64,000 nt of DNA, taken from contig NZ_CP132381.1 in assembly GCF_030758615.1 (NCBI RefSeq), forward strand, positions 310,001-374,000. Reading direction: 5' to 3'. Source of the stretch: Gilliamella apis. GTDB lineage: Bacteria; Pseudomonadota; Gammaproteobacteria; Enterobacterales; Orbaceae. The notes under the pieces were generated by a model. It was not told the origin of the DNA, searched no databases, and saw nothing but the letters and a program-made list of their open reading frames with translations. This document shows positions 32,676 through 59,362 of this stretch, piece after piece. Each line of letters starts with the position of its first letter. Position 1 is the stretch's first letter. Both the position numbers and the translations under genes were made by a program.

Positions 32676-32692
32676 TGATAAAGGGGCCTATT

Positions 32693-33681
32693 ATGAGTTG
32701 GTTTAAAAATATGACGGCTAAAGAGTTGCTACAGTATGTTGGTGATATTAAACAAATTGCTGGGGCAACGAGTTCCATTTTAAATGATGGCCCTGGTTTT
32801 AATTCTCGTATTTGTGAGGTTAATACCGCAGCAGGGTTAAGTTTTACTGTATTACCTGATCGAGGAATGGATATTTCAGCATGTCGTTATAAAGGCATAC
32901 CCATTGCGCCAATATCAAAAGTAGGGATCAGAAATCCAGAAAGCGTGAATAATAGTGGATATGAGTTTTTAAAAAATTTTCATTGTGGTTTATTAACTAC
33001 TTGTGGATTAACGCATATTGGTCCGCCATCGGCTATTAATGGTTTACATGGCCCATTTTCTAATTTACGTACAGAAAATTTTTCTATTAATGAATTTTGG
33101 GATGATGATGATTATATTATTCAGTTGAAGGGTAAAATACGTCAAGCTGTGTTTTTTTCTGAAAATATTCAATTACAAAGAACAATAACTACTTCATTAA
33201 AATCTTCATCTTTTACTATCACTGACACAATCACTAACCAAGCATTTAGGCATGAAAATATTCAACTTTTATATCATATTAACTTTGGTTATCCACTATT
33301 ATCACCAGATACGACAATAAAGCTACCCACAGTAACCACGTTACCCCGAGATGAAGTCGCAGATAAGGGGTTGGCGCATTTTCTTGATGTATTACCGCCT
33401 CAAGCTATTTTCGATGAGCAGGTCTATTTTCATCGACCAAAACCAGAAAAAAAATGCCGTTTTAGGGTTGAAAATAAAACTATTGGTATTGCGCTGGACT
33501 GTCAATATGACTCAACTGAGCTCCCTTATCTGACACAGTGGAATCAATTTGGTCAAAATGAATATGTTCTCGGTATTGAACCTGGTTAGGATGGCCAATG
33601 AATAAGCCAGAGGGGGGATTGATTTTAGCACCATTAGAGAGTTTTACGACGTCGCTGCATTTTGATTTAAGTAATATATAA
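32693..33681 (+). pseudogene. DUF4432 aldose-epimerase-like protein, frameshifted near its end
   Basis: A galactose-mutarotase-fold protein of the DUF4432 family: VLPDRGMDISACRYKG near 45, GPPSAINGLHGPFSN near 110 and the closing GIEPG. The frame stops at TAG 33587-33589 directly after EPG. In another frame the expected C-terminus continues as WPMNKPEGGLILAP through FTTSLHFDLSNI to 33681, so one base seems to have been lost at about 33586-33591. The missing tail is only about 30 residues, so a truncated protein may still fold. It could convert the anomers of the sugar used by this locus. Confidence 0.65.
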
Positions 33682-33798
33682 TAAACAAAAATACTGTAAG
33701 GCATTTTAATAATTACTAGGATGAAAAATTTACATTTCAATTTGGTTAGTAGATAACCCTAATTGACTGTAATGAATAATATTTAATGGAGATAAATA

Positions 33799-34665
33799 AT
33801 GAAACGATATGGTAGTGTTGAGGCGGGAGGAACAAAGTTTATTTGTGCTGTTGGCAATGAAAATAATGAAATAATTATTAGCGAAACTATTCCAACCACA
33901 ACTTATGCAGAAACGATAAAAAAGGTCATTCTGTTTTTTAAACAAAATAGTGTTGATGCTTTAGCAATAGGCAGTTTTGGGCCGGTAGATCTTGATATTT
34001 CTAGTGACCAGTATGGATGCATACTGAATACTCCAAAACAAGGTTGGACTAATGTAAATATTGTTTTACCAATACAGAAAGAACTCAATATACCTATCTT
34101 TTTTACAACGGATGTTAACTCAAGCGCTTATGGTGAAATGTATTTAAACTCATGTAATAATTTGGTTTATTACACAATTGGCACTGGAATTGGAGGAAGC
34201 GCTATTCAAAATGGCGTATTTATAGGTGGCGTCGGTCACCCAGAAATGGGGCATCAATTAATAAAAAAACATTCGTTAGATGTCAATTTTAAAGGTGTTT
34301 GTCCATTACATGGTGATTGTTTAGAAGGGCTAGCATCAGGGCCAAGTATTGAAGCAAGAACGGGTAAAAAAGGCCAAGAATTGGATGCTAGTTCAGATGT
34401 TTGGGATATTCAAGCATACTATATTGCCCAAGCTATTTTAAATGCGACCTTAGTGATTAGACCTGAGTTAGTCATTGTTGGTGGTGGTGTGATGAGCCAA
34501 AATCATATGCTAGAACGAATAAAAACGCATTTTAAAAGATTATTAAATAATTATGTCACCATTGAAAATATTGATAAATATATAAAAACCCCGTCAGTTG
34601 AAAATAATGGTAGTGCAACAATTGGTAATTTTTTACTCGCCAAAAACTTATTAATTAAAAATTAA
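33799..34665 (+). CDS. ROK-family sugar kinase (fructokinase-like)
   Basis: A 288-aa cytoplasmic kinase. The N-terminal ATP-binding DxGxT-like motif reads VEAGGTKFICAVG. GTGIGGSAI near 128 and the sugar-site HPEMGHQ near 146 follow, then a zinc-binding set CPLHGDCLEGLASGP near 165, as in ROK fructokinases of the Mak/ScrK type. It probably phosphorylates fructose or the ketose made by the lyxose/mannose isomerase encoded in the divergent operon. It follows the DUF4432 gene by 117 nt. Confidence 0.88.
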   Translation: MKRYGSVEAGGTKFICAVGNENNEIIISETIPTTTYAETIKKVILFFKQNSVDALAIGSFGPVDLDISSDQYGCILNTPKQGWTNVNIVLPIQKELNIPIFFTTDVNSSAYGEMYLNSCNNLVYYTIGTGIGGSAIQNGVFIGGVGHPEMGHQLIKKHSLDVNFKGVCPLHGDCLEGLASGPSIEARTGKKGQELDASSDVWDIQAYYIAQAILNATLVIRPELVIVGGGVMSQNHMLERIKTHFKRLLNNYVTIENIDKYIKTPSVENNGSATIGNFLLAKNLLIKN

Positions 34666-34992
34666 TTTATTCGCATTATATATAATTAGGTTGTTATTTC
34701 TTCAGGAATAACAACCAACTAAGTAATATTGTCATCTTCTCCTTTAATTATCCACCTTCACTAGGCCACGACAAGCAATGTTATTAGATAAATTAGCTTT
34801 AAATGATTATACTGGTGAATTATACGCATCCTTAAATTGAGTATTTATAAACTTAGTTTAAATGAAATATTGTATGCTAAAACATGGAGCATTTGAGGAA
34901 ATTACAGCAACAATCTGATTTATTTATAGGATCTATTACTGTAACTATTATCAACATATCTAAAATTTATATCTTTGGATGAAACGAGTTGT
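34666..34992. other. Intergenic region with a 10-bp hairpin
   Basis: GGTTGTTATT (34689-34698) and AATAACAACC (34707-34716) form a 10-bp stem with an 8-nt loop. It is probably the kinase-gene terminator, although no T-run follows. The rest is AT-rich with no coding signal. Confidence 0.45.
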
Positions 34993-35940
34993 ATGCCAAA
35001 CAGAATAATTAATCCCAATAATAAGTTATATAAGGATGAGCAATTGAATCGTGACTATCCGGTTACGGATATTTCAGAAAACAACATAAGAGAACAAATG
35101 CCTGAAATATTCAACATATTATTAATTGATAGAACGACATCTACAGCTGATGAGATAAATAATATTATTTGGGCCAATGATAATTATAGCCAATATAACC
35201 ATACAGCCTATTCACCATCTGCTCAGATAAGACCTGAGTTAATCACAGGTAACATGGCAAAAATCATCATGCCTCGGGCGTTAAAACCGCGAGAGCAGCA
35301 AAAAGAACGAACTAAATCAAAAGCGGAAGTATTTACACCAATTTGGGTTGTGCAAAAACAAAATGATATTCTTGAGAAAGAATACGCTAATGATGATTTG
35401 GATACTTATATTAAGCGAAAATGGTTAGAAATATCATGTGGTGAAGCGCCGTATATGGTTACTCGCTATGATATGAATTCTGGGCAAATGATACCACTGC
35501 AAAAAAGAGTAGGTTTTGTTGATAGGAAACTAAAACGTATCAATGCTGAAATAAATGATAAAAAAGAATGGCAAAGATTCGCTATCAAAGCTTATCAAGC
35601 CAGTTATGGCTTTGAATGGAATGGCGACTCGCTTTTATTAGCTCGAGAGAATTTATTTTACACATGTTGTGATTATTATTTTGCTAAGTGGCAAGAAGAA
35701 CCATTATATGAATTTTTGAAAAATGTGGCTGAAGTGATTAGCTATAATTTATTCCAGATGGATGCTTTACAACAGATTATTCCTTTGTCAGAACAACAAG
35801 CCTCATTGTGTGACAATCAGTTAACTTCTTTTAGTCAAGAAAACAATGCACAACAATTGCTTAAAAACCACGGTAAGCGTGTAAAAATTATGAATTGGGA
35901 TATAGGGGAAATGATTTTTTTTGGCGAAGGAGATAGATAA
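34993..35940 (+). CDS. N-terminal part of a split N6-adenine DNA methyltransferase
   Basis: A 315-aa protein with the cofactor-binding half of a gamma-type adenine methyltransferase. KAEVFTPIWVVQKQN near 105 (motif X), LEISCGEAPYMVTRYD near 143 (motif I position) and YGFEWNGDSLLLARENL near 205 (motif II/III) are present. The catalytic NPPY is absent and is encoded by the next gene, which begins inside this stop codon (TAATG). Similar separate subunits exist in other restriction loci, so this may be a natural two-chain enzyme instead of a broken gene. I use the ATG at 34993; a TTG at 34975 is possible. Confidence 0.75.
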   Translation: MPNRIINPNNKLYKDEQLNRDYPVTDISENNIREQMPEIFNILLIDRTTSTADEINNIIWANDNYSQYNHTAYSPSAQIRPELITGNMAKIIMPRALKPREQQKERTKSKAEVFTPIWVVQKQNDILEKEYANDDLDTYIKRKWLEISCGEAPYMVTRYDMNSGQMIPLQKRVGFVDRKLKRINAEINDKKEWQRFAIKAYQASYGFEWNGDSLLLARENLFYTCCDYYFAKWQEEPLYEFLKNVAEVISYNLFQMDALQQIIPLSEQQASLCDNQLTSFSQENNAQQLLKNHGKRVKIMNWDIGEMIFFGEGDR

Positions 35941-36971
35941 TGAAATTCGATGTGGTTGTCGGTAATCCTCCCTATCAAGATATGAATGTCGGCGAAAATA
36001 ATCAAGCTGTTCCTATATATCATTATTTTTATGATTTAGCTGAAAAGGTCGCAAGTAAATACACGTTGATTTCGCCGGCTCGATTCTTGGCAAATCAAGG
36101 GGCAACACCGAAAAAGTGGAATCAGAAAATGCTGACTGACAAACATATCAATATTGAATATTTCAATGCTAAAAGTGATGAAGTTTTCCCAAATGTTGAT
36201 ATTAAAGGCGGTATCGTAATTATTTTTAAAGATAAAAATAAAATTTTTGGTGAAATTGATACTTTTATTCCTTTCAAGGAATTGCGATCTATATTTCATA
36301 AAGTTAAATCAATAACTAAAGAAAATATGAGTAATTTTGTGTATAGCCCCGATAGTTATCGATTTACAGATTGTTTGTTTATTGAAAATCCTTATTTGAT
36401 TGGCCGAACGGATAAGGCTCATGCAAAAGCTGTCGCCTCTAGTGTATTTAGTCGCTATCCAGAAATATTTTTTACCACCAAGCCAGATGATGGCGAGGAT
36501 TATATTCAAATCTACGGTCGCACAAAAGGTGCCCGTATATATTATTGGTTGAAAAGAAAATATATTGCTAATCATGCTAATTTAGATAAATGGAAAGTTT
36601 TTGTGCCAGGTGCTAATGGAACAGGGGCGTTTGGAGAGATATTGAGTACACCAGTTGTTGGATCTCCCGCAATCGGACATAACCAAACATTTGTCAGTCT
36701 AGGAGAATTTGATACTGAGTTTGAAGCTGAAGCATTACTTAAATACCTTAAGTCAAAATTTGCTCGTTCAATGCTAGGTATTATGAAAACAACCCAGAAT
36801 AATCAATCAAAGATCACATGGTCAAAAGTTCCGCTGCAAAATTTTACTAAAAATTCAGATATAGATTGGAGTAGATCTATTTCAGATGTCGATCAGCAAC
36901 TTTATATTAAATATAGTTTAGCTGAAAACGAAATTAACTTTATTGAAAGTAAGGTTAACCCCATGAACTAA
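35940..36971 (+). CDS. Catalytic part of a split N6-adenine DNA methyltransferase (Eco57I-like)
   Basis: A 343-aa protein beginning MKFDVVVGNPPYQDMN, with the catalytic NPPY motif (motif IV) near residue 10. ISPARFLANQGATPK near 44 and PNVDIKGGIVIIF near 83 follow, as in Eco57I-family methylases, and the C-terminal half is probably the DNA-recognition domain. AAGGAG in the end of the preceding gene serves as its ribosome site, and the stop and start overlap by one base, so the two chains should be made in equal amounts. Together they would methylate adenine to protect against the endonuclease encoded next. Confidence 0.8.
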   Translation: MKFDVVVGNPPYQDMNVGENNQAVPIYHYFYDLAEKVASKYTLISPARFLANQGATPKKWNQKMLTDKHINIEYFNAKSDEVFPNVDIKGGIVIIFKDKNKIFGEIDTFIPFKELRSIFHKVKSITKENMSNFVYSPDSYRFTDCLFIENPYLIGRTDKAHAKAVASSVFSRYPEIFFTTKPDDGEDYIQIYGRTKGARIYYWLKRKYIANHANLDKWKVFVPGANGTGAFGEILSTPVVGSPAIGHNQTFVSLGEFDTEFEAEALLKYLKSKFARSMLGIMKTTQNNQSKITWSKVPLQNFTKNSDIDWSRSISDVDQQLYIKYSLAENEINFIESKVNPMN

Positions 36972-36986
36972 CTAAGTAAATTTGCA

Positions 36987-37922
36987 ATGGTTAATATAAT
37001 AGAAACCAATCGATTTAAATTTTTTAATGTTGATGAAAATATTGTTATTTTTACTTATCAGGATGATTTAGAAAAATTAAACTTAAATTTAGAGAAAATT
37101 GCTAAAAACACGCAAAATACTTGGCAACCAAACAGAAATCAAAAAGAGATAGATAAAAATACCCTACAAGGGAAAATTGTTGAGGAGTTATTTATTGATT
37201 TGATTGAGTACCAAAATTGTCAAAATGATAATATGAGACAATTATCATATACGGCTTATGACCAATTTAGGACTGATTTATTTAAAAAACATGCTCCTTT
37301 TGATGGTCTTATCTATGAAAAAAATAATCCCAATATCGCACTTGTTAAGCAAAAAATAACGGAAACAATTCTTGCCAGCCATTATGGTATGTTAACTGAT
37401 GATACTATTGAGTTTTGCCGAGCAAATAACGTTTATTTGGTAGAGATAAAGTCATCAAAGATCCCTAATAATATCTATTTATCAAAAAGTTGTAATTTAC
37501 GAAAATATACTTCTCATCAAGCATTAATTAATCGTCTTAGACAACTAGATCTATTTAAATATCCTAAGTTCAATAGAAAAAATGGTGATATTATTCATAA
37601 CACTTGCGATTATTTAGCTTGGATTAAAAATAATATTATTTCTATGTCACAAAAATCAGACAGTGAAATAATCGATGCCGAAATAAATTCGTCTTTAGAT
37701 ATATACACCAGAATTTTTATCAATGACAAAGTAACAACAGATGATGGCAAAAAAGTCTTTATCGGTTATCTATTGGGATATGTTTTAGGGTATCAGTTTT
37801 ATGAAAATCTTAAAATTATGAACTTTGCTTCTAAAAAATCTAGCAAAGCGATTTATGTCACTTATCCAATCTCAAATACAACAAGTTTTAACCGCTTATT
37901 TGATGATAAAAGGCTGTGGTAA
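36987..37922 (+). CDS. Predicted type II restriction endonuclease, PD-(D/E)XK type
   Basis: A 311-aa protein 15 nt after the methyltransferase gene. APFDGLIYEKN near 110 followed by VYLVEIKSSK near 150 gives the D-(E)-x-K catalytic arrangement of PD-(D/E)XK nucleases. No other domain or membrane span is visible. The position after a split methyltransferase makes it the likely restriction partner. Its recognition sequence cannot be read. It lies just outside the left direct repeat of the tRNA-Phe island. Confidence 0.75.
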   Translation: MVNIIETNRFKFFNVDENIVIFTYQDDLEKLNLNLEKIAKNTQNTWQPNRNQKEIDKNTLQGKIVEELFIDLIEYQNCQNDNMRQLSYTAYDQFRTDLFKKHAPFDGLIYEKNNPNIALVKQKITETILASHYGMLTDDTIEFCRANNVYLVEIKSSKIPNNIYLSKSCNLRKYTSHQALINRLRQLDLFKYPKFNRKNGDIIHNTCDYLAWIKNNIISMSQKSDSEIIDAEINSSLDIYTRIFINDKVTTDDGKKVFIGYLLGYVLGYQFYENLKIMNFASKKSSKAIYVTYPISNTTSFNRLFDDKRLW

Positions 37923-38226
37923 ATACAACAAATTATAGTCAAAATCCCTAAAATTTTGATGTCATGTTACTTATGATACCGTTTGAATCCTTAACGTCTC
38001 GACAATGAAAACAGAGTAATAGAATTAACTACATATGCATCAATATTGCCTATTATTTATATCACTACAATCTTATTGGATTTAACTTTTTAGTTAATAG
38101 TGTTAAATAATCACTATTGTTGATTATTTAGTCAGTTAGAAACCTCAATGCTTATCGTCAAGATTATAAGCGTCTTGATAAAGTTTTAACTGATTAAATT
38201 GGTTAACAATATTTATAGATACACGT
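37923..38226. other. Junction between the restriction locus and the island
   Basis: About 300 bases without coding signal. It contains the end of the restriction locus and the left flank of the island repeat. Confidence 0.4.
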
Positions 38227-38410
38227 CATTATCGAACCAAATGTATCCGGGGTTGTATCCGATTTTGCACTTGATATGGGGTAATCTCAGTTGACATCGG
38301 TTGACAAAGAAAATCGCTTGAAAGGTAGCTTGGAAAAGGCTTTAGACATAAAAAAAACTGCTAGAAGCAGGTCTTAAAATTTGGTGATTGGTGCCCGGAC
38401 GCGGAATCGA
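38227..38410. repeat. Left att-like direct repeat of the tRNA-Phe island
   Basis: This 184-bp segment aligns without gaps to 59125-59308 with about 13 mismatches by my reading. The last 46 bases (38365-38410) are identical and include the 3' end of tRNA-Phe (minus strand). After position 38410 the tRNA similarity stops abruptly. It is the far attachment site of an integrated element. Confidence 0.85.
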
Positions 38411-38721
38411 AGATACAGCTTAAAGTATTGGTATTATTGGGTTGGGGGATGTATCCGTGTTTTTATCCATGATTATACTTATTTGCTTTAATTCACACTT
38501 CATCCATCACTTTTATGATTATTAAATAGTTACTAATTATAATGTCAGTTATATTCTAAGGGTACATACTTTTTGATATAAAATATAATGTAAATTTGTT
38601 TATTAGCACAAGTTAATGCTTATAATTGGCACAGATTTAGTACCATAGCATGCCATATAACACAGCTTAGTCTTCAGGAATTATTTACTAGTTTTTGTCT
38701 TATTCTTAACTAATTTAATTA
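38411..38721. other. Inner flank of the left att site
   Basis: No gene. ATGTATCCGTGTTTTTATCC near 38449-38468 partly repeats the double TATCC motif inside the att repeat (38241-38260). This could be an integrase arm-site arrangement, but the resemblance is short. Confidence 0.35.
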
Positions 38722-40566
38722 TTAGAGTTGAATACCGTATTTATTTTCAATAAATAGATCTAACTTTTTTTGATTCTTTTCTTTTAAAATATAATTAATT
38801 TCTTCATCTGAGAAATTGTAGATTCCAAAATTATTAATATAGTTTCCATTTAATGAATAATAATCAGAAGAATAGGGTTTACTTGTTGTTTTGATATAGT
38901 ACCAAAATAGTCTTGATTCGATAATACGTTTTATAAGTAACAGTTCTTTTTTAGTATGTCCGACTATTGCTATTCCATTATAGAATAAAAGATCTTTATC
39001 GGTTGAGATAATACTGCTTGGTGTCTTATTAGACATTTTAGGGAGGAATAATTTATTACCAATTACATTTAGTGACTGTGTTCTACCAAACGCAAACCAA
39101 TCCTCATATTTACCTGAACCTTTATCTCTTTTAGCAAGAATATCTTTTTTACTCAAAAGGTATCGATAAGCTTCTGGATATTTTGTCTTCAATATACTTT
39201 CTTTAATTAATTTTGCACTAGAGTGTGTATCTCTATTATAGGGAAATATTATTTTTTCTTCTAAGTCTTTTAATGAATATGAGCTACTTAATTTATTTGA
39301 ATTAATAATACTTTTACATAATTCTTTTTCTATTTTGTAATCTTTATCTTTATTAAAATAATAATATTTTTCATCTTCATAAATTGGTTTAAATATATAT
39401 ATATCATTTTTTAATGTTGCTAAACCATGACTAGTTTTATATTTTTCACCAAAAGGGCTTCCTATTTCTTCAATCTTAGAGATTATATCTGTATCTTTCA
39501 AATTCCATCCTTTTTTAGAATTTAAGAGAGAGTATTTTATTTTATTGAATTGTTTTTTATCATTTAAATTATTACTTTCTGATTTGTAATATTCTAAATA
39601 GCTAGAAATTTTATTTTTAATAAAACATATACATGTATAAGTATTTCTAGATCGAAAAATTTGTTCACAGCCAAAATCAATAATTTGAAAGTTCAATTGT
39701 TTATTTTGGAAATATTCACGTAATGCACGCCCATTCAAACTTTTGAAAAAAGTATTCATTGTTATATAACCAAGAATGCCTTCTGATGCTAAATTTTCGA
39801 TCGCAATTTGAAAGAAAGGTATATATAAATCAGAATTTCCTGTGGAGCTTACTGACCAGTTTTTTAATAATTTTTTAGTTTCAATATTTAAGTTACGGGC
39901 ACAAACATAGGGGGGATTTCCTAAAATAATATTAAAACCAGAAAAATCACTAATATAGTCATTCCAATTAAATATTAATGCATCACCAACAAATAAATTA
40001 AATTTGAATTCAGGTATATCTTCACCATTTATTAATGCTAAAAGAGAAAGTAATAATTTTGTTCTTTGTATTGAATATTCTTGAATATCTAAACCAAAAA
40101 TATTTTTTTCAAAAATATTTTTATAGGTTTCATTAGTTAATTTTTTTAAATTTTGTGCTGCATTAAACAAAAAACCTCCACAACCACAAGATATATCAGC
40201 TATTTTTATAGTGGAAATATCTTTTCTTTTTTTAAGGACTGTATTGGTAATGTATGTTCGAATATTTTTGGGTGTATATACTGCACCGTTAACAATTCTA
40301 TCTGAAGGAGATATGACATATTCAAAAAGCTTGATTAGTTCTTCAAAATTAAATTCATGAATTTCATTATTAATTAAATCTAGGAAAGTATTAAATAATT
40401 TATTATTTGTTTTTTTCATTGATGTAATTAAATAGGATTTTATTAATTTATTATTTTTTAGTGAAATATTATTTTTATAAATGAATGCTGAGATGATTAG
40501 TTGATCAACCTCAAAAGGTTTCGTTATTTTATTATGTTTGAAATATGTGATTACTTTATTTTTCAT
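38722..40566 (-). CDS. N6-adenine DNA methyltransferase, Eco57I/TaqI-like
   Basis: A 614-aa adenine methyltransferase in one chain. GAVYTPKNIRTYI near 97 (motif X), IADISCGCGGFLFNA near 123 (motif I), FGLDIQEYSIQRTKLLL near 158, and the catalytic NIILGNPPYVCAR near 212 are present. A long C-terminal target-recognition region of the TaqI-C type follows. It is the last gene of a leftward locus with an HNH nuclease, a receiver protein and a dual-ATPase kinase-like protein; a gap of 135 nt separates it from the HNH gene. It may modify host DNA to protect it from the HNH enzyme. It is strongly AT-rich. Confidence 0.82.
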   Translation of the reverse strand: MKNKVITYFKHNKITKPFEVDQLIISAFIYKNNISLKNNKLIKSYLITSMKKTNNKLFNTFLDLINNEIHEFNFEELIKLFEYVISPSDRIVNGAVYTPKNIRTYITNTVLKKRKDISTIKIADISCGCGGFLFNAAQNLKKLTNETYKNIFEKNIFGLDIQEYSIQRTKLLLSLLALINGEDIPEFKFNLFVGDALIFNWNDYISDFSGFNIILGNPPYVCARNLNIETKKLLKNWSVSSTGNSDLYIPFFQIAIENLASEGILGYITMNTFFKSLNGRALREYFQNKQLNFQIIDFGCEQIFRSRNTYTCICFIKNKISSYLEYYKSESNNLNDKKQFNKIKYSLLNSKKGWNLKDTDIISKIEEIGSPFGEKYKTSHGLATLKNDIYIFKPIYEDEKYYYFNKDKDYKIEKELCKSIINSNKLSSSYSLKDLEEKIIFPYNRDTHSSAKLIKESILKTKYPEAYRYLLSKKDILAKRDKGSGKYEDWFAFGRTQSLNVIGNKLFLPKMSNKTPSSIISTDKDLLFYNGIAIVGHTKKELLLIKRIIESRLFWYYIKTTSKPYSSDYYSLNGNYINNFGIYNFSDEEINYILKEKNQKKLDLFIENKYGIQL

Positions 40567-40701
40567 GAGTAAATTAATAATTAAAATATATTTATGAAAT
40601 AAAATATTACTAGTATGTTATAAAACAATAACTTTTTTTCAAAAAATTTTCATAAGTTATCTATGTACTAAATAATAGTTTATCGCAATTATTGTATCCA
40701 T

Positions 40702-41307
40702 TTATAGTTGTTCTTTGTGTTCTTTTAAAGTAGAAAAGCTTTTATTAAGTTTCTTTGATATAATATAGAATTCCTTAAAGGATTCATTATCCATTTGTTG
40801 TTCTATTTTTTTTTCTAAGACAATTAGTTTTTCCTGTAATTGTTCTACTAACCATATTATATCTATCGGCCGTACATTAAATTTAAAATGTGAAACCATA
40901 TAATTACCAACTTCAGTATTAGCGATAATACTTCCATTTTCATCTCTGGATAAATGAACATCATAATCAGACGATGCTGGATCTACATATCCTTGTATAT
41001 TATTGTGATGCGATGTGAATGATTTTGATGGCCAATCATTCGATTTGTTTCTGTTACAAACTGAACAAGAATAAACTAGATTTTCATATTTATAGGTTAA
41101 CTCATCTTTACCATTTTCTTTACAGAAAGATAGAGGTATAAAATGATCTATTTGGCTTTGGCAAGATATATATTCGAAGTTCTTACCACAATACCCACAA
41201 ATATTTTTAAAGTCTTCAATTAATATAGATCTATAATTTCTATAATCTTTCAGTAAAGAATAATTAGTTCTTCTTGTTATTATTCTATTTCCATGAACTC
41301 TTGCCAT
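40702..41307 (-). CDS. HNH endonuclease
   Basis: A 201-aa nuclease. A zinc-finger HNH motif is visible: CGYCGKNF near 37, the catalytic SQIDHFIPLSF near 51, an asparagine in YENLVYSC near 75 and the second cysteine pair in CSVCNRNKS near 80. The C-terminal third is a coiled-coil-like helix (EQLQEKLIVLEKKIEQQ). Its start lies 3 nt after the stop of the receiver-domain gene, so the two are translationally coupled. It is the likely effector of the locus. Retron or McrA-type HNH proteins are distant alternatives. Confidence 0.8.
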   Translation of the reverse strand: MARVHGNRIITRRTNYSLLKDYRNYRSILIEDFKNICGYCGKNFEYISCQSQIDHFIPLSFCKENGKDELTYKYENLVYSCSVCNRNKSNDWPSKSFTSHHNNIQGYVDPASSDYDVHLSRDENGSIIANTEVGNYMVSHFKFNVRPIDIIWLVEQLQEKLIVLEKKIEQQMDNESFKEFYIISKKLNKSFSTLKEHKEQL

Positions 41308-41310
41308 AAT

Positions 41311-41955
41311 TTATTTTTTTATCAGATTTTTTTCGATTTTGCTTAGAATAAATAGCATATCTTGTATATTTCTTTTTGTATCTTTGTATAACAATATATC
41401 TGGAATGTCATCAACGTAATTATAAGCTCTTAAAACTCTATATAATGAGTAAAATCTAAATTCTTCATCAGCTGTTATTTCATTTTTTGAATATTTCGAA
41501 TATAAAATGTTATATTCTTCTAAGGATAGTGTTAATCGTTTTATAAAACATTCTGCACCATTTTCTATAAATTTTACGAATTCTATAAATTCTTGTGAGT
41601 CACTTTCTTTAAGAATAATATTTTTATCTCTAATATATATGCTTGGAACAAGCTTTTCACTAATTCCATTTTCAACATAATTGGTAAATAAAATACAAGG
41701 AAAAGATGGTAGGATTTCGTTTAATTCTTTAATAATTTTGGTGCCTAAATTTTTAGAAGGGAAATTCATAAGATCATAATCGACTAATAAACATAATAAT
41801 TGTTTTGATAGAATAAAATTAATTACTATTTCAATATTAGTTATATTGTTAATATCTTCTAATGTAATAAGTTCAATATTATTTTTCTTAAAACTTCTAT
41901 GCATATTTTGTTGAATATCACTATAATCATCATCCAAGAAACCCAGCTTTATCAT
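41311..41955 (-). CDS. Receiver-domain protein with unknown C-terminal domain
   Basis: A 214-aa protein with a response-regulator receiver pattern in residues 1-125: acidic cluster FLDDDYSD near 6-13, the phospho-acceptor aspartate in CLLVDYDLM near 59, the threonine in ILFTNY near 92 and the lysine in NIILKES near 116. The C-terminal 90 residues are helical and match no output domain I know; there is no DNA-binding motif. It overlaps the preceding kinase-like gene by 4 nt (ATGA) and is followed by the HNH gene, so it probably relays a signal between them. Confidence 0.72.
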   Translation of the reverse strand: MIKLGFLDDDYSDIQQNMHRSFKKNNIELITLEDINNITNIEIVINFILSKQLLCLLVDYDLMNFPSKNLGTKIIKELNEILPSFPCILFTNYVENGISEKLVPSIYIRDKNIILKESDSQEFIEFVKFIENGAECFIKRLTLSLEEYNILYSKYSKNEITADEEFRFYSLYRVLRAYNYVDDIPDILLYKDTKRNIQDMLFILSKIEKNLIKK

Positions 41956-44183
41956 ATTTCTCTTCCTTTAAAATAAATCTCAATTATAAAACCATCGTTG
42001 CTTGTTTTGTTTTTCGATAGATCAACGTACCCTTTATATTCGGAAATTATATTTTTTACTATCCACAATCCTAAGCCAGTTCCTATAATTTCATCATTAG
42101 CATCTCTTTTATCTGTTACTCCATATTCCAAAATTTTATCAGGATTTTTTTTAAAACTTTCAAGTAATCCAGAACCATTATCTTTGTATTTAATGAAATT
42201 ATATTCACCATTATTACCTATTTTAATATTGATTTCTTTGTTACTAATATTATTTGTTTTAAACATAAATACACTATTAGTGATTAGATTATTTATAATA
42301 CTCTCGAAATCATATGAAAAACATCTAATCTCAATTTCTTGATTTGGATCAAATATAAATTCAATATTCTTATTGATATTTTTCCATGTTGTAATCGACG
42401 AATTAATAATTTGGCTTAGCTTTAGTAATTTCATTTTTCTTTTGTCTTTTTTTATAGATTCTAATGAAACGCTAAACCAAGAGTTAAAACTTTCATGTAA
42501 TGGTCTTATTTTGGCTAATTCTTTTAAAGCATTCTCAACATCATTGTCTTCTTTTAATAATTCATAAGCTTCTTTTACTCCCAAATTAAGTTTCATTGTC
42601 AAAGTTTTTATTTCATGAATATATGTATTTACCACTATTCCTGTTGTAGCCAGAGCTCTTAGGAGCCCCATTTCTTCTTCAAGTTCTATTATTTTTTCAG
42701 ATTGATAATCTAAGGCTTCTTTTACCTGTTTTGCATCTATTTTCGGTGATTCATTTTGTGATTTATTTTGAAAAGTTTGTTCTATTTCATCTTTTAATCT
42801 ATTTAATTTTTTTCCACGCTCATTAATATTTTCATCACGAATATTGAGTTTTCTAATAACATATTGTCTATCTTCTTCAATAAATTTAATTATAGAAATA
42901 ATGAACTCTTTGAAGATTATAAATTCAGGTGTTTCAATTATCCCTTCTCTACTAGATTTATCAGGTAAATTTTTATTTTCTCTTGAAAGGTAAATTTGAC
43001 CACTAATTTGATTATTGTGAACTTTCCATGAACCTGATTTATGCGATGGTGATGCCGGTGAGCGAGCTCTACGAGCTGATAAATCTAACCAATCGAATTC
43101 AGGGGAACCTTTGAATCCATAAGGTCGAACAATAAAATTATCTCTATATATTTTTATTCCTGTAATATCTTTTAGATCTCCTTTTCTTCTAGAAAAGTCC
43201 TTATAAAAATATTTTGCTTCGTTTTTATCTTGCGTAACTATTTTATAAAAATATATTTCACCTGTTATTTTTCCCAAATCATAATTTTTCTGTGTTCTGG
43301 GAAGTAACTCTTTTATATTAGTGTTAATTAATTTAGGTATACCCTTGAAATAATTTAAATCATCTTTATTGAATTTAGCTTCATCACTAATTTCTTTTAA
43401 ATTTGCACCAAAATCAAATTCATTACGGTAAAGTGTAATGTCACAATTTCCATTTGTTTCAAGTTCGAAAAACACCTTATAATCATATGAATCAATAAAA
43501 GCTGAATCTATTTTGGCTTTTTCTTTAATTGTATCTTCCTTAAATAAGTATATTTGAAATCCATGGGTATTTGGTGGTAAAAGTTTAGAAAGGGAAAGAA
43601 TAATTTTATCAATTAGTGCATTGGACCAATTATCTCTAAGTTGTGTTAATTTAAAACAAGTTCCTTTGCCAGATAATTTTTCCTTAATTAAGTCAATGAC
43701 ATTTTTATTTAATATTGAAGAGCAAAATTCAAAGTGAGATGTTTTAACATATTCGATATCAGCATAAACATCAGTTATCTTATCAATAGAAGAAAAAAGA
43801 TCCCAATTAATTGACCAAATAAAGTTGCTAGAATCACCTATACTATGCATAGTGCAACTACTTGCTATCCTATCAAGAGCAAAACGTCCGATTCCTTTTT
43901 CGCCTGTTTGAATTCGACCACAATTAGTAACATAATTAGTAATTTTTGATGAGTAACCTATTGTCATCCAATGAGCAGTTAAAATTTGTGGTGTCATTCC
44001 AACCCCATTATCCATTATCCATAAACTTTGAGTAGACTCTTCATAGTAAATTATGCAAATTGGTGCATCAGCATCATATGAATTTTTAACTAATTCACTG
44101 ATGGCACCTTCTAGATTAGATATATTTTCTCGACCAATTAGTCTTGCTGTTTTTGCACTTACATTAAATGGTATTTTAGGCAT
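41952..44183 (-). CDS. Dual GHKL-ATPase protein with histidine-kinase-like C-terminus
   Basis: A 743-aa soluble protein with two GHKL ATPase modules. The N-terminal one is Hsp90/MutL/MORC-like: AISELVKNSYDADA near 26-40, MDNGVGMT near 57 and GEKGIGRFALD near 93. The C-terminal one is kinase-like: a DHp-type H-box VNTYIHEIKTL near 515, an N-box INNLITNS near 634, KDNGSGL near 672 and GTGLGLWIVKNI near 708. No membrane span or standard sensor domain is present. It is the first gene of the locus and overlaps the receiver gene. It is presumably the sensor and phosphodonor of a two-component-like defence module. Confidence 0.75.
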   Translation of the reverse strand: MPKIPFNVSAKTARLIGRENISNLEGAISELVKNSYDADAPICIIYYEESTQSLWIMDNGVGMTPQILTAHWMTIGYSSKITNYVTNCGRIQTGEKGIGRFALDRIASSCTMHSIGDSSNFIWSINWDLFSSIDKITDVYADIEYVKTSHFEFCSSILNKNVIDLIKEKLSGKGTCFKLTQLRDNWSNALIDKIILSLSKLLPPNTHGFQIYLFKEDTIKEKAKIDSAFIDSYDYKVFFELETNGNCDITLYRNEFDFGANLKEISDEAKFNKDDLNYFKGIPKLINTNIKELLPRTQKNYDLGKITGEIYFYKIVTQDKNEAKYFYKDFSRRKGDLKDITGIKIYRDNFIVRPYGFKGSPEFDWLDLSARRARSPASPSHKSGSWKVHNNQISGQIYLSRENKNLPDKSSREGIIETPEFIIFKEFIISIIKFIEEDRQYVIRKLNIRDENINERGKKLNRLKDEIEQTFQNKSQNESPKIDAKQVKEALDYQSEKIIELEEEMGLLRALATTGIVVNTYIHEIKTLTMKLNLGVKEAYELLKEDNDVENALKELAKIRPLHESFNSWFSVSLESIKKDKRKMKLLKLSQIINSSITTWKNINKNIEFIFDPNQEIEIRCFSYDFESIINNLITNSVFMFKTNNISNKEINIKIGNNGEYNFIKYKDNGSGLLESFKKNPDKILEYGVTDKRDANDEIIGTGLGLWIVKNIISEYKGYVDLSKNKTSNDGFIIEIYFKGREI

Positions 44184-44591
44184 AAAAGATCTCGTATTTA
44201 GAAAAATACTAAAAAAATTTTTCAGCTATTTTCATTCTATGGAAACTCATCTAAAGTTTATTTTATTTTTAAATAGATAGGAAGCATCAATTTCTATATT
44301 TATAAATATGGGAATTAATATTTAATTAATTATTTTATGTAATAAAATATCTAACTTTATTTTTATTAGGATCAAAATAATATTCCCTATATGTTTCATG
44401 GGGGATCATTAACATAATTTGGGCAGAATAAATGATAAAAGTTTTGATATACTTCCATTGTTTAATATGTCAACTAAAGGAAAAAGTCCAATTTCTTTTC
44501 ATTATCTACGTTAGTTTGTGGTGACAATTTTTCCAGTTTTATATACTTGTTATAAATTAAAGCTAAACTCAAAAATATAATCATTAATAAT
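44184..44591. other. Intergenic region upstream of the kinase-like gene
   Basis: About 400 AT-rich bases with no coding signal. It holds the leftward promoter of the four-gene locus and the 3' flank of ardA. Confidence 0.4.
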
Positions 44592-44628
44592 TACCCTAAT
44601 AAAGCTTTAAATAAGCTTTATTAGGGTA
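44592..44628 (-). terminator. Perfect 16-bp hairpin after ardA
   Basis: TACCCTAATAAAGCTT (44592-44607) and its exact complement (44613-44628) flank a 5-nt loop, beginning 4 nt after the ardA stop codon. Probably a terminator that isolates ardA from the defence locus. Confidence 0.7.
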
Positions 44629-44632
44629 TTAA

Positions 44633-45310
44633 CTAATCATCAAAATCATTTGGTTCTGTCAAAACACAATACTCTTCAGGAATACTTTCACCATCGTAAT
44701 CGGAACTAAAAGTTTCACCTGTATAATAGATGTAATTACCAGAATAAAATGTGCCATTTTGTTCGAGCGTAATATCATGACCGTAGCGTTCATAATCAAA
44801 GTAGTTACTTAAATTGCCTAGCTCTTTTAAACTATAACAGCCACTTTCTGCAATCCAATAAAAACCTAAATCATATTCATCAGAAATATTGGACAAGGAT
44901 TGAAAGCAATCTAAGTTATCAGATAAATTAATTAAGTCAGTAATAGAATTAACATAGTCTCCAACATCAATAACTGCTTCATAAATTTCCATTTCATCAT
45001 GACTTAATTCGTCAAGTTTACAGGCTAAATAGTTTAATTCATCAAGATTACTATGTTCTGATATATAATTTGATACACCATAGACAGTCGATTCATAATC
45101 TGTTAAGAAATACTCATCATAGTTAATACCATCAATTCCAATTCTTTGAAAGCATTGTTTTACTTGTTCAGATGTTGTTGGCAAGGCAAGCCATTCGCCC
45201 ACTAACTCACCTTCGTTATATTTTCCTAAATTGGTTACAAATACTGAGATCGTACCCGAACCCACCGCAGTGGATTCAGGGTATGACGATACATTCGGTA
45301 ATGTTTGCAT
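44633..45310 (-). CDS. ardA: Antirestriction protein ArdA
   Basis: A 225-aa, strongly acidic DNA mimic. The N-terminal ISVFVTNLGKYNEGELVGEW and the following TSEQVKQCFQRIG segment are diagnostic of ArdA. Acidic residues dominate the rest (DELSHDEMEIYEAV, SIPEEYCVLTEPNDFDD). ArdA proteins occupy type I restriction enzymes by mimicking bent DNA and are carried by mobile elements to survive entry into a new host. I start at the ATG at 45310, at a good distance from AAGGAG. It follows the integrase gene by 72 nt on the same strand. Confidence 0.9.
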   Translation of the reverse strand: MQTLPNVSSYPESTAVGSGTISVFVTNLGKYNEGELVGEWLALPTTSEQVKQCFQRIGIDGINYDEYFLTDYESTVYGVSNYISEHSNLDELNYLACKLDELSHDEMEIYEAVIDVGDYVNSITDLINLSDNLDCFQSLSNISDEYDLGFYWIAESGCYSLKELGNLSNYFDYERYGHDITLEQNGTFYSGNYIYYTGETFSSDYDGESIPEEYCVLTEPNDFDD

Positions 45311-45382
45311 AAACATCTCCTTAAATTTTTAGATATTAAAATAATTGATTTTTGAAAAGAGAATTAAATAGTAGAGTGCTTT

Positions 45383-46630
45383 TTAAGCAGTTTTGAATTC
45401 ATAAGGCATGACATATTCAGTTCGGATTGAATCTAAGTAATCAGCCCACCACTGAACCATTTTTGTTCGTTCAATAATGTGCTGTGCTTTATGAATATAA
45501 GCAGCCCTTACACCATTACGTTCTTGATGACTCATCTGGCGTTCCACAGCATCTCGTGACCAGAGATTAGATTCAACCAAAGCACTACAGGCCATTGTTC
45601 TAAACCCATGCCCACAAAGTTCTGTTTTGGTATCATAGCCAATAGAACGTAATGCTTTGTTTATTGTGTTTTCGCTCATTGGCTTTCTTGCTGAGTGATC
45701 CCCAATAAATACTAGTTCGTACATGCCACTAATTTCATGAATCTGTTTTAAGATTTCAATTGCTTGATCACTTAGTGGAATTAAATGAGGTGTTCTCATT
45801 TTGGAACCTCGTTGAGAATGAGGTACACCATCAATTTCTTCCCTTTCAGCAGGAATAGTCCAAATCTTTTTATCGAAATCAATTTCTAACCAACGAGCAA
45901 ACCGTAGCTCACTAGAACGAATAAATATAAGTAGAGAGAGTTTTATTGCTAATTTGGTTAACTCTCGTCCTTTAAAATTATCAATGCGTTCTAAAAGTTC
46001 AGGTATTTTTTCGAGTTCAAGTGCAGGCCGATGATTCACTTTTACTTTACTCACTACCCCTTTTAGATCTTGAGCAGGATTATAAGAGATGTAACCATTT
46101 TGCACTGCATAGCGCATTATTGCTGAAGTACGTTGCTGTAATCGGCTAGCGACTTCAAACCGACCATTTTCTTCAACAGCTTTAATTGGAACAATTAACT
46201 GACGGGTAGTTAATGCTGAAATAGAATAAGCTCCAATTTTAGGAAATAAATACAATTCTAATGTTCGTAGTACTTTTGCTCTATGTGGCTCAGACCAAGT
46301 TTTGTTATTGCTACACCATTTACGTGCAACTTGCTCAAAAGTAACTTGTATTTCATCTTCAAACTGTTTTGCTTTCTTTTCTACCTGCGGGTCAATATTT
46401 CTAGCTAGTAATGATTTGGCTTCATTTCGTATCTTTCTAGCTTCGCTTAATAAAACATTAGGATATTGGCCTATAGACATTAATTTTTCTTTACCATTGA
46501 AATAATAGCGAAAACGCCAATATTTAGAACCATTTGAATGAACAAGTAAGAATAAACCATCACCATCAGAAAGTTTATATTGTTTATTGTATGGTTTGGC
46601 GGATTTGATTTTTAAATCTGTCAAGGACAT
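45383..46630 (-). CDS. P4-type tyrosine integrase of the island
   Basis: A 415-aa site-specific recombinase. The N-terminal domain (MSLTDLKIKSAKPYNKQYKL) is the DUF4102-type arm-binding domain typical of P4-like integrases that use tRNA genes. The catalytic set is visible: arginine in FIRSSELRFARW near 232, HGFRTMACS (H-x-x-R) near 342, histidine in QMSHQER near 366 and the nucleophilic tyrosine in RAAYIHKA near 375. The protein is complete. It probably inserted this element at tRNA-Phe. It lies in the middle of the island and not at an end, which is unusual. Confidence 0.92.
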   Translation of the reverse strand: MSLTDLKIKSAKPYNKQYKLSDGDGLFLLVHSNGSKYWRFRYYFNGKEKLMSIGQYPNVLLSEARKIRNEAKSLLARNIDPQVEKKAKQFEDEIQVTFEQVARKWCSNNKTWSEPHRAKVLRTLELYLFPKIGAYSISALTTRQLIVPIKAVEENGRFEVASRLQQRTSAIMRYAVQNGYISYNPAQDLKGVVSKVKVNHRPALELEKIPELLERIDNFKGRELTKLAIKLSLLIFIRSSELRFARWLEIDFDKKIWTIPAEREEIDGVPHSQRGSKMRTPHLIPLSDQAIEILKQIHEISGMYELVFIGDHSARKPMSENTINKALRSIGYDTKTELCGHGFRTMACSALVESNLWSRDAVERQMSHQERNGVRAAYIHKAQHIIERTKMVQWWADYLDSIRTEYVMPYEFKTA

Positions 46631-46661
46631 AACGAATTCCTCAATTATAAAAATTTAGATA

Positions 46662-46693
46662 TAAAAAAAGCCACATATTTGACTATGTGGCTT
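46662..46693 (-). terminator. Intrinsic terminator after the AlpA-like gene
   Basis: Read leftward: an AAGCCACATA stem pairs with TATGTGGCTT and is followed by a T-run. It lies between the AlpA-like gene and the integrase gene. Confidence 0.8.
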
Positions 46694-46713
46694 GGGTGAT
46701 AGAAATTTAACTG

Positions 46714-46923: not shown

Positions 46924-47761
46924 TGTTGTACCTCTATTGAGTGATGTGGGTTAATTACATTCAATAGATAGGTATCAACAATATTTTTTTACTATTTGAT
47001 AATACATTCCTTATATCTACATTGATTAGATCCTTATTTTTTTAAGTTAGAATTAATATTATTCAAAATTTGATAAAGAGGATCATTATATACTGAGTCT
47101 ATATATTGATCTGAATAAGTAGCACTAAAACAATGATTAGCCAGTTTAGGATCTGAAAGTACCTTTGGAAATGAGTTAGTTTCTATAATTAATTCACAGC
47201 TGGTTAATACTGGTTCTTGTTTCCCTACTAAAGACCAACGTATTTTTTGGTCATAACTTTTGATTTTTAGTATGACAAGAGAATTGTTATAAATACTAAA
47301 ATTAACTTAACAGTATTGACTGTTAAGTTAAGTGCACTTTAAACCTAAAATTCAATAAAATAACCTCATTTAATAAAAAATCACTCATAGCAAAATCTGT
47401 CAATTTTAGTTTTATGGCTATGTTATCTTCATAATAAATCCAATAAATTCAATAAAGTAAACTCAAATTAAGCATTGGAAATTAATAACTGAAACTCCAT
47501 CGTAAACTAATTTGGTGAGAACTTGCTCACAAATAATTGGATACATTATTAAATACATTGAATTAAAAATAAAATTTATATAATTTAATAATGACTAAGT
47601 AATTGGGTCAATAATTCTCATATTACTTAGTGTTAGGAGATTAAAAATATTAGATGGAAGCATGTTCTTTTAGGAAAACACCTCATAGATAGGCAATTAA
47701 ATTTCTCAGAATATATTTTTCTAAATATCTAAATCTATCACCATCAACTAGGAGATAATTT
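46924..47761. other. Gene-poor region between integrase and tartrate modules
   Basis: About 840 bases. The only coding signal is the start-less fragment at 47034-47306. The rest is AT-rich, and the promoter of ttdA must lie near its right end. Confidence 0.5.
47034..47306 (-). pseudogene. Start-less reading frame of about 90 codons, unidentified
   Basis: An open minus-strand frame encodes SYDQKIRWSLVGKQEP, CELIIETNSFPKVLSD and later YNDPLYQILNNIN before a stop. Its codon use is gene-like, but no ATG, GTG or ribosome site opens it and an upstream stop bounds it. It looks like the C-terminus of a truncated gene. I cannot name the family. Confidence 0.35.
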
Positions 47762-48664
47762 ATGTCAGATAAAGATAAACTTGTGACTAATATGACCGAA
47801 ATAATGAGCAAGTTTGTAGCCCTTGTAGGTAAGAAATTACCTGACGATGTTGAAAATAAACTTCAAGATCTAAGCAAAAAGGAGACAAGTCAATTAGCAA
47901 AAGTCATCTATAGCACTATGCAGGAAAATCAAAATCTTGCGATGAAATTGAATCGGCCGTGTTGCCAAGATACGGGCGTTTTACAGTTTTCGGTAAGATG
48001 TGGTACGAATTTTCCTCTTATTGGTGAATTAGAAAACATTTTAACTAATGCAGTATTTCAAGCCACAATTACCGCCCCTCTTAGACACAACTGTGTTGAA
48101 ACATTTGATGAAAAAAATACTGGCAAAAATATAGGTACAAATGCGCCTTATATTTTTTGGGATATTATTCCTGATAGTGATGTCGTTGAAATTGATACTT
48201 ACATGGCTGGAGGCGGATGTACTTTGCCAGGTAAAGCAATGGTACTCATGCCTGGTGCTGGTTATGAAGGGGTAACTAAATTTGTTTTAGATGTAATGAC
48301 CAGCTATGGATTAAATGCTTGTCCTCCGCTACTTGTTGGTGTTGGTGTGGCTACTTCAGTAGAAACAGCAGCACTTTTTTCCAAAAAAGCGCTTATGCGC
48401 CCAATCGGTTCTCGAAATGCCAATGAAAAAGCCGCTAAATTTGAACAGCTGCTTGAAGATGGCATAAATAAAATAGGATTAGGTCCTCAAGGTATGTCTG
48501 GTAAATATTCAGTTATGGGAGTCCATGTTGAAAATGGTGCACGTCATCCATCGGCGATTGGTGTGGCAGTAAATGTTGGTTGTTGGTCTCACCGTAGAGG
48601 AACAATTGTATTTGATAAAGAGTTGAATTACCAAACGATAAGTCACAAAGGAGTAACACTATGA
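47762..48664 (+). CDS. ttdA: L(+)-tartrate dehydratase alpha subunit
   Basis: The catalytic subunit of the iron-sulfur enzyme that dehydrates L-tartrate to oxaloacetate. At 300 aa it closely resembles E. coli TtdA: cluster cysteines in NRPCCQDTG near 64-68, [10 protein letters not shown] near 153 and NACPPLLVG near 188. [11 protein letters not shown] near 101 is also shared. TtdA-like rather than fumarase-like features run along the whole length. AGGAGA precedes the ATG. The stop overlaps the ttdB start (ATGA). Oxygen-labile, so it points to growth in a low-oxygen niche. Confidence 0.9.
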
Positions 48665-49275
48665 GCCAAAAGAAAATATTAACCACCCCAATAAAATCTG
48701 AGGATTTAGAAGGAATTAAAGCTGGGGATATCGTTTACCTAACTGGCTATATTGTAACTTGTCGTGATGTGGCTCACCGTCGATTAATTGAACAAGGATT
48801 AGATTTACCGGTTGATATAAATGGTGGTGCAATTTTTCATGCAGGACCAATAGTTAAAGCATTATCTGATAATGAATTTCAAATGATATCTATTGGACCA
48901 ACAACCTCCATGAGAATGGAAAAATTTGAAAAAGAATTTATTGAACAAACAGGCGTGAAATTAATAGTTGGTAAAGGTGGAATGGGGCCAAATACTGAAG
49001 AGGGTTGTAAAAAATATAAAGCAATTCATGTCGTTTTCCCGGCTGGATGTGCTGTTGTTGCTGCAACACAAGTTGAAAAAATAGTTGATGCTAAATGGCG
49101 AGATCTTGGTATGCCTGAAACATTGTGGGTATGTAAAGTAAAAGAATTAGGTCCTTTGATTGTATCAATTGATACCGAAGGGAATAACTTATTTGAAAAT
49201 AACAAAATCATTTTCAATCAACGCAAGGAAGAAGTTTATCAAGAAATTATTCCGCAAGTCAGGTTTATTAAATAA
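48661..49275 (+). CDS. ttdB: L(+)-tartrate dehydratase beta subunit
   Basis: Second subunit of tartrate dehydratase, 204 aa. The start [13 protein letters not shown], the segment FHAGPIV near 60, [11 protein letters not shown] near 78 and [20 protein letters not shown] near 103 all follow E. coli TtdB. It is translationally coupled to ttdA through a 4-nt overlap. The alpha-beta pair is shared with two-subunit class I fumarases, but the resemblance and the neighbouring anion transporter favour tartrate. The product oxaloacetate would feed into the neighbouring FAH-family enzyme or central metabolism. Confidence 0.9.
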
Positions 49276-49320
49276 CGGTAACTATCCATAAGTAACATCA
49301 AAATTATGAAGGTTAACGTT

Positions 49321-49380
49321 ATGTTGGAAGTTTTAATAAAAGACAAAAAATTTGTCTTTAGTGAGAAGGATGAAATGTAA
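49321..49380 (+). other. Possible 19-codon leader reading frame
   Basis: ATG at 49321 opens a 19-codon frame whose TAA overlaps the transporter ATG (TAATG). It also contains a 9-bp hairpin, AAAGACAAA/TTTGTCTTT (49339-49359). It could couple translation of the transporter, but may be chance. Confidence 0.25.
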
Positions 49381-50663: not shown

Positions 50664-50692
50664 CAAAATTGTTATATGAATTTAAATAAAAA

Positions 50693-50715
50693 TGCCACTT
50701 TAGTCAGAAGTGGCA
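50693..50715 (+). terminator. Hairpin after the transporter gene
   Basis: TGCCACTT (50693-50700) pairs with AAGTGGCA (50708-50715) with a 7-nt loop, 30 nt after the transporter stop and 26 nt before the next start. No strong T-run, so it may be a leaky terminator or an mRNA-stabilising stem. Confidence 0.45.
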
Positions 50716-52267: not shown

Positions 52268-52272
52268 CTAGG

Positions 52273-59017: not shown

Positions 59018-59124
59018 AAATTTTGAGTTGGTGTGAAAAAATATTAATCATAAATGGTAGCGCTCAAGCAATTTCTCTTAAGCATTACAAATAAAGGCTT
59101 TAAAGCCATTTTATGGATACTCGC

Positions 59125-59308
59125 CATTATCGAACCAAATATATCCGGGTTTGTATCCGATTTTGCACTTGATATGGGGTAATCTCAGTTGATGCCGGTT
59201 GACAAACAAAATCCCTTGAAAGGCTGATTTGAAAAGGCTTTAGACATAAAAAAACCTGCTATAAGCAGGTCTTAAAATTTGGTGATTGGTGCCCGGACGC
59301 GGAATCGA
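59125..59308. repeat. Right att-like direct repeat of the tRNA-Phe island
   Basis: 184 bp matching 38227-38410 with about 13 mismatches. It contains the tRNA-Phe terminator stem CCTGCT/AGCAGG and ends inside the tRNA. This copy keeps the intact tRNA, so the island lies between this site and the left repeat. Confidence 0.85.
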
Positions 59309-59362
59309 ACCACGGACACGGGGATTTTCAATCCCCTGCTCTACCGACTGAGCTATCCGGGC
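59287..59362 (-). tRNA. tRNA-Phe (GAA)
   Basis: A 76-nt tRNA on the minus strand. The 5' arm GCCCGGA pairs with TCCGGGC, the D-loop contains AGTCGGTAGAG, the anticodon loop reads TTGAAAA with anticodon GAA, and the T-loop reads GGTTCGATTCC. The discriminator A and the encoded CCA are at 59290-59287. It is intact and is the integration target of the island. Confidence 0.97.

Follow-up and report, generated by a model that had tools for sequence, protein, structure and literature searches.

A group of four leftward genes, here called K, R, H and M, lies in a 64,000-nucleotide (nt) stretch of Gilliamella apis DNA that was analysed as a whole and is referred to as the window. They encode a kinase with two GHKL modules, a receiver protein, an HNH endonuclease and an Eco57I-type methyltransferase (Table 1). 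K and R overlap by 4 nt, R and H are separated by 3 nt, and 135 nt lie between H and M. The four open reading frames (ORFs) were found at the coordinates given in a first-pass annotation of this DNA, and the composition proposed there is borne out by Pfam for K, H and M and by a structure model for R. The same annotation described the genes as tightly coupled, which holds for K, R and H but not for M, on the far side of the wider gap.

Table 1. Features of the four-gene cluster and of the island around it (positions in the window; aa, amino acids)
Feature	Position	Strand	Description
K	41952..44183	-	743-aa dual-GHKL kinase: N-terminal MORC/Hsp90-like ATPase, S5-like middle domain, coiled coil, DHp, HATPase_c
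R	41311..41955	-	214-aa protein: receiver domain (about 1-120) and helical C-terminal tail (121-213)
H	40702..41307	-	201-aa HNH endonuclease, two CxxC pairs and His55; PF01844 4.1e-9
M	38722..40566	-	614-aa Eco57I-type methyltransferase, predicted N6-adenine, NPPY at 217-220; PF07669 2.5e-28
K Glu30	44094..44096	-	predicted motif I Glu of N-terminal GHKL ATPase
K His523	42615..42617	-	predicted phospho-accepting histidine of DHp helix
R Asp59	41779..41781	-	predicted phosphorylation site
Left direct repeat	38212..38411	.	ends in 25 bp of tRNA-Phe 3′ end; 92% to right copy over 200 bp
Right direct repeat	59110..59309	.	runs into tRNA-Phe (59287-59362)
ardA (ArdA antirestriction protein)	44633..45316	-	PF07275 4.9e-36
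Tyrosine-recombinase integrase	45383..46630	-	PF00589, PF13356, PF22022
Terminator-like hairpin, ardA-K interval	44592..44628	-	16-pair stem; consensus match only

In K, Pfam places HATPase_c_3 at residues 24-131 (1.9e-15) and HATPase_c at 626-738 (7.4e-12). The structure model (43-row alignment; predicted local distance difference test, pLDDT, 82.1, with its minimum in the coil near 473-480) resembles the ATPases of MORC2, MORC3, SMCHD1 and Hsp90, with 825 matches at E<=0.001 and template-modelling (TM) scores of 0.34-0.54 over the target for the MORC/Hsp90 matches among the 50 listed. In a profile comparison, of which 60 of 69 matches are shown, the part of K from about profile position 517 onwards matches histidine-kinase DHp-HATPase chains (for instance ZraS, 2c2a and 3dge), and the N-terminus matches one MutL chain. 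Because of these fold and profile matches, K reads as a predicted MORC-like ATPase to which a full histidine-kinase core is joined, so that Pfam, model and profile agree with the earlier description of an N-terminal Hsp90/MutL/MORC-like ATPase and a C-terminal DHp/HATPase module. The layout of HATPase_c_3, a DHp domain with its core histidine, and HATPase_c is present in the window protein, as are all four two-component boxes, H, N, G1 and G2 (YIHEI, NLITN, DNGSG and GTGLG). His523 is a histidine in 81/81 ungapped rows of an 83-row alignment, followed by Glu (63) or Asp (18); Glu30 is kept in 80/80 ungapped rows of 83, and the N-box and G2-box residues N632, N636, G701, G703 and G705 are invariant in ungapped rows. 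These and the following conservation rates include the window sequence and, for R, that of locus L076. The highest identity to K, 55-56%, occurs in protein matches (P0002) known here as proteins alone, and is above that of any locus.

For R, no Pfam match was found at E<=0.1. In its structure model (34-row alignment, pLDDT 92.7), a receiver with five strands leads into a long helical hairpin (121-213). The solved structures that match it at a TM-score of at least 0.7 are largely receivers, for instance DivK (0.74 over the target) and RR468; E 0.001 was reached by 2 of the 1398 matches. A DNA-binding domain was not seen in the model, in line with the absence of such an output noted earlier, and a transcriptional output of R was rejected for this reason. 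The receiver residue set is complete in the window: acidic pair D8 and D9, phospho-acceptor D59, T91 at the Thr/Ser position and K111 after beta5. The first-pass annotation had listed all of these, and most are well conserved, with Asp59 kept in 72/72 rows, T91 in 71/72, and an acidic residue at D8 in 72/72 and at D9 in 71/72. The basic position is the part of that claim that does not extend to the family, as it is Lys in 38/72 rows, Arg in 24/72 and Phe, Tyr or Ser in 10/72.

In H, the residues C37, H55, N76, C81, N85 and K88 are kept in 72/72 rows, and C40 and C84 in 69. The nearest PADLOC model is PtuB (1.8e-15), and the score against the NCBIfam PtuB model is 26.5 bits, compared with a cut-off of 150 bits. 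No target-recognition domain was recognised in H. Septu and retron Ec78 share this PtuB-type HNH likeness, but the partners of H are K and R rather than a PtuA ATPase. No PtuA-type gene was found among the nine ORFs scanned, and it is the HNH protein that gives the PtuA-model matches among those listed for it (best 25 of 56 families).

The association of K, R and H extends well beyond Gilliamella. A search seeded with the kinase only, with one genome per species, gave 79 loci from the best 80 of 169 relatives, and three loci of the same genus brought the number to 82. K is followed by R and then by H in 70 of these, mostly overlapping or at most 30 nt apart. The co-occurrence in many genomes that had been anticipated for the cluster was thus found, and the genes are not rare companions. 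Chance adjacency of K, R and H was rejected, because their order is conserved in so many loci. Among the other 12, three end at a contig edge (L056, L062 and L066), one has a split kinase with R and H still present (L068), and eight have distant kinases with other partners or none (L071, L074 and L076-L081). According to the record titles, the rows of the kinase tree come from Bacillota, Bacteroidota, Melainabacteria, Pseudomonadota, Cloacimonadota and Nomurabacteria, the last two with one metagenome-assembled genome (MAG) each. A phylum-wide profile search returned mostly matches to the C-terminal kinase part alone; consequently, no prevalence was drawn from it.

In addition to keeping their order, K, R and H diverge jointly. 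Two loci with cut kinases (L073 and L075) were dropped from the distance work, which left 68 of the 70 (kinase of at least 600 aa). Over 63 sets, namely 62 loci and the window, pairwise distances correlate at 0.94 for K-R, 0.94 for K-H and 0.62 for K-M; as relatedness was not removed, only the contrast between the first two values and the third counts. In a tree of 160 kinases, the 87 kinases of K-R-H loci group together with those of three contig-edge loci with a support of 0.287, and the next branch, which adds the kinase of L076 (with a receiver and without HNH), has a support of 0.885.

The fourth gene behaves differently. Solved relatives of M are adenine methyltransferases, including BseCI, and both PF07669 and the catalytic NPPY motif are present in the window protein. 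An Eco57I-type methyltransferase adjoins the trio in 62 of the 68 loci. In 36 of these it lies upstream; in 24 it is of the L045 type, on the downstream side in 23 and upstream in L031; and in 2 it is of the window type and downstream. Pfam confirmed ten of these partners, and in L051 one small ORF is called on the opposite strand between H and M. The six loci without a methyltransferase ORF of at least 400 aa are L030, in which the methyltransferase is split, L055, L072 and the short loci L082-L084, which end inside a methyltransferase-like ORF. Window K groups with kinases of Lachnospiraceae (Shimodaira-Hasegawa-like approximate likelihood ratio test, SH-aLRT, 99; 50% identity), but window M is nearest to those of two Bacteroidia loci, L023 and L041 (43% and 48% identity), whose K proteins are only 34% and 31% identical to that of the window; identity of M to the other sets is 14-29% among the 50 of 63 rows listed. 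It follows from this discordance that M has been exchanged between lineages while K, R and H stayed together. Thus, the earlier inclusion of the methyltransferase in the unit stands in that it usually adjoins the trio, but not as a part of its fixed core. A plain type II restriction-modification (R-M) system with an unrelated two-component neighbour was rejected for the core, because M is swapped and K-R-H is kept.

Other partners are found around related kinases. With the kinase profile, 107 viral contigs were found, and the best 80 comprise 18 with K-R-H, 52 with a larger partner and 6 with another small partner; three of the remainder end at K or have no near partner, and one lacks a kinase call. 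A custom-made receiver-signature pattern, which misses receivers with other spacing, occurs in the ORF after K in 63/76 readable viral loci, compared with 1/337 control ORFs. In L166, L169 and L171, an ORF of receiver size comes after the kinase, and the HNH position is taken by a protein with an HxDxDH motif; in L166 (8063-9753) there are a weak receiver match (1.2e-3), a Lactamase_B match (3.6e-10) and an N6-type methyltransferase upstream. This is an apparent effector swap, in which a protein with a metallo-beta-lactamase (MBL) fold (L166) or motif (L169 and L171) replaces HNH, and its role as a cutter is presumed.

Four distant genome loci were scanned and hold a kinase and a protein of 362-392 aa that matches a receiver; upstream of this pair, a C5 methyltransferase is present in two of them (L079 and L081) and absent from L080 on checking. 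The 363-392-aa receiver proteins at L081:10091-11182, L079:5829-6971 and L077:2821-3999 share a C-terminal domain with an LTPSCD/LWPTCD-like motif, for which no Pfam assignment was obtained in these three; that of L081 also weakly matches the PADLOC candidate PDC-M60B (8e-6). Given their length of 300-620 aa, the receiver-like proteins of many related loci likely carry an extra domain of their own. In another arrangement, a 244-252-aa ORF follows a 365-410-aa ORF beside an Eco57I-type methyltransferase and the kinase (L179:6461-7213, L175, L186, L187, L203 and L204), and is a candidate new effector family, for which Pfam gave no match in L179, the member scanned. No Pfam match was found for the ORFs after the receiver in L179, L189, L207 and L213.

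Detocs is a defence system in which a soluble histidine kinase and receivers act against phages. A phosphorylase joined to a receiver serves as its effector, accompanied by a decoy receiver, and the system is not known to have a nuclease or a methyltransferase. By contrast, a phosphorylase-receiver effector is absent from the four genes by Pfam, and R consists of a receiver and helices only. The first-pass annotation had named Detocs as a known system of two-component type, but two others are closer as far as their accessible text goes: the HEF_HK/Response_reg_2 elements described in 2021 (PMC8011034) and the paraMORC1/HNH operons described in 2008 (PMC2292703). The former have kinases with HATPase_c_3, HEF_HK and HATPase_c, whose neighbours are receiver-like proteins and R-M genes, HNH among them (Bellieny-Rabelo et al. 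2021, PMC8011034); in these elements (PF19191/PF19192), most methylases are of the C5 type and HNH_2 is the endonuclease domain seen most often. They thus share with the present cluster the soluble kinase layout, a neighbouring receiver-like protein and R-M genes. Nevertheless, at E<=0.1 window K does not match PF19191, though this model matches L107-L109, and window R does not match PF19192, though that model matches L107 and L108; membership was consequently rejected. In three of the five HEF_HK loci fetched (L107-L109), the kinase is related to K, with profile matches at 4e-78 to 7e-102, and falls outside the K-R-H group of the tree; the other two, L110 and L111, had no match to the K profile. 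In L107 and L108, the Response_reg_2 proteins have 555 and 617 aa, compared with 214 for R, and lie beside a C5 methyltransferase; neither of the two was identified among the ORFs scanned in L109.

The second precedent is paraMORC1, a family of GHKL proteins reported to co-occur with HNH genes in operons predicted to be of the R-M type (Iyer et al. 2008, PMC2292703). In the portion available, they are described as a GHKL and S5 ATPase with a conserved C-terminal extension and an HNH partner, as in the K cluster. The MORC-like fold is seen in K, and the likeness to the 2008 family is one of description only. In contrast to the K-R pair, the main text of that article names neither "receiver" nor "response regulator". 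VcSduA, a Shedu protein with a GHKL N-terminus, requires both its GHKL ATPase and its nuclease for phage defence according to the accessible text (PMC12137116); it differs in being a single protein with a PD-(D/E)xK nuclease, and a kinase, receiver or methyltransferase partner is not mentioned there. A figure legend of DefensePredictor abbreviates HATPase and REC among predicted systems, the gene content not being visible in it (PMC13092281). No paper describing a K-R-H-M cluster was found in the open-access literature, with subscription papers and supplements outside this scope. What is known, then, is a dual-GHKL kinase and receiver with R-M genes (2021), and what is new is the placement of K and R outside PF19191/PF19192 by sequence match. 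Since K and R match neither family and the related HEF_HK loci differ, the cluster is set apart as a variant of the described association.

On balance, the four genes form a conserved cluster that likely acts as an anti-phage R-M system, in which phosphate passed from K to R would switch on H and M would mark self; this reading has even chances of being right. A phosphorelay-gated nuclease with self-methylation is the most economical interpretation, and we infer its main elements, namely defence, phosphotransfer from K to R and nuclease licensing, from the gene sequences. In the proposed mechanism, the N-terminal MORC/Hsp90-like clamp of K would close with ATP on foreign or unmodified DNA, and closure would drive autophosphorylation of His523. 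The phosphate would then pass to Asp59 of R, whose helical tail would release or recruit H. Once switched on by phosphorylated R, H would cut DNA, while M would protect the DNA of the cell. A broader and more tentative proposal is that the cluster belongs to a large, mobile class of restriction licensed by a His-Asp phosphorelay, in which a MORC-type clamp-kinase would sense foreign DNA and a receiver would take swappable cutters and methyltransferases. The cutters of this class would be HNH here and an MBL-fold enzyme or receiver-fused domains elsewhere, and the methyltransferases would be Eco57I types or C5; this broader reading falls somewhat short of an even chance.

Several observations weigh against the phosphorelay reading. 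The G1-box Asp668 of K is replaced by Asn in 16/79 ungapped homologues (15 titled Bacillota and one Bacteroidales MAG), and because of this change some members may be incapable of autophosphorylation. The kinases concerned are those of L029, L030, L032-L040, L042, L065, L070, L073 and L075, and the DHp histidine is still invariant in them. Moreover, the canonical lysine of R is not kept throughout. When 87 trios (effective n about 72) were scanned for mutual information, with relatedness as a confounder, the DHp-receiver interface did not stand out; instead, 43 of its top 50 inter-protein pairs are between H and K, and 33 of these 43 fall in the N-terminal and middle domains of K. H, in which no target-recognition domain is recognised, does not seem to account for cutting specificity, and in a classical type II R-M pair one would not expect M to be swapped independently of H. 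Because of the gap between H and M in the window, co-transcription may not extend to M. Finally, the precise K-R-H grouping has weak support in the kinase tree, and the proposed mechanism does not depend on that grouping.

Some of these points favour another reading, in which K, R and H are one DNA-bound machine whose GHKL clamp controls H directly, with the kinase and receiver parts as an allosteric or structural switch. The MORC/Hsp90-like fold of K, the G1-box substitution, the covariation (confounded as stated) of H with the N-terminal and middle domains of K, and the need for the GHKL ATPase in the nuclease-based defence of VcSduA in the available text (PMC12137116) are all consistent with it. 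Nevertheless, His523 and Asp59 are invariant even where the G1-box residue is Asn, and the acidic pair and T91 of R are kept too, which makes this reading unlikely, although it is the strongest of the rivals.

Less probable still is abortive infection, in which phosphorylated R would free H as a non-specific nuclease that kills or arrests infected cells and M would be only loosely linked. The proximity of H to PtuB models, which describe effectors of Septu and retron Ec78, its lack of a recognised target-recognition domain and the exchangeability of M fit this possibility, whereas a methyltransferase next to the trio in nearly all loci argues for self-protection. Lastly, it is quite improbable that the kinase and receiver regulate the expression of an ordinary type II R-M pair of HNH and methyltransferase, for instance after island transfer: two-component pairs are mostly transcriptional and R-M often needs timing control, but R has no DNA-binding domain in its model, the K-R-H order is fixed while M is swapped, and the related receiver-like proteins are often long enough that they likely have an extra domain of their own.

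The phosphorelay reading is set in a mobile context. The first-pass annotation had placed the genes on a mobile island, and this was confirmed by a 200-bp repeat (92% identity) that carries the tRNA-Phe 3′ end and flanks the operon. A second terminator-like hairpin, again a consensus match only, lies inside the left repeat, downstream of M. In a related genome (G033), identity is 99.3% over 32203-38111 and resumes at 59220 (98.3%); between these two parts, at the same site, G033 carries the genes of a type III R-M pair (PF04851/PF19778 and PF01555/PF18273) together with an ardA-like fragment of 262 bp. The tRNA-Phe site looks like a defence hotspot. The right part of the island (47271-53163, with fumarate hydratase and a major facilitator superfamily transporter) recurs at 99% identity on a separate contig of another genome (G032), and for this reason the island looks composite. 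Just outside it, at 34975-37922, there is a split Eco57I-type methyltransferase (321 and 343 aa, the second part with NPPY). The next protein, of 311 aa and with no Pfam match, is plausibly its restriction enzyme, and this set lies within the stretch that is 99.3% identical in G033. K is present in 4 of 72,556 plasmid records at E 1e-30, and the two of these four that were inspected both show a sensor histidine kinase, a hypothetical protein, HNH and N-6 DNA methylase in this same order. No near-identity match to the 12-kb stretch 34700-46700 was found in plasmids, and none of 50,697 records of named phages contains K at E 1e-10.

The usual view is that the target site is all that controls a restriction enzyme. 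If the proposed mechanism is true, a complete histidine kinase and receiver would stand between the sensing of DNA and its cutting, in a cluster whose nuclease and methyltransferase are interchangeable. Restriction would then gain a phosphorylation checkpoint, with protein phosphorylation as its switch and not the target sequence alone. The prediction hinges on three residues: H523 of K, D59 of R and H55 of H. The cluster would also provide a mechanism for the kinase/receiver/R-M association reported in 2021, as well as a bacterial setting for asking what MORC-type DNA clamps sense.

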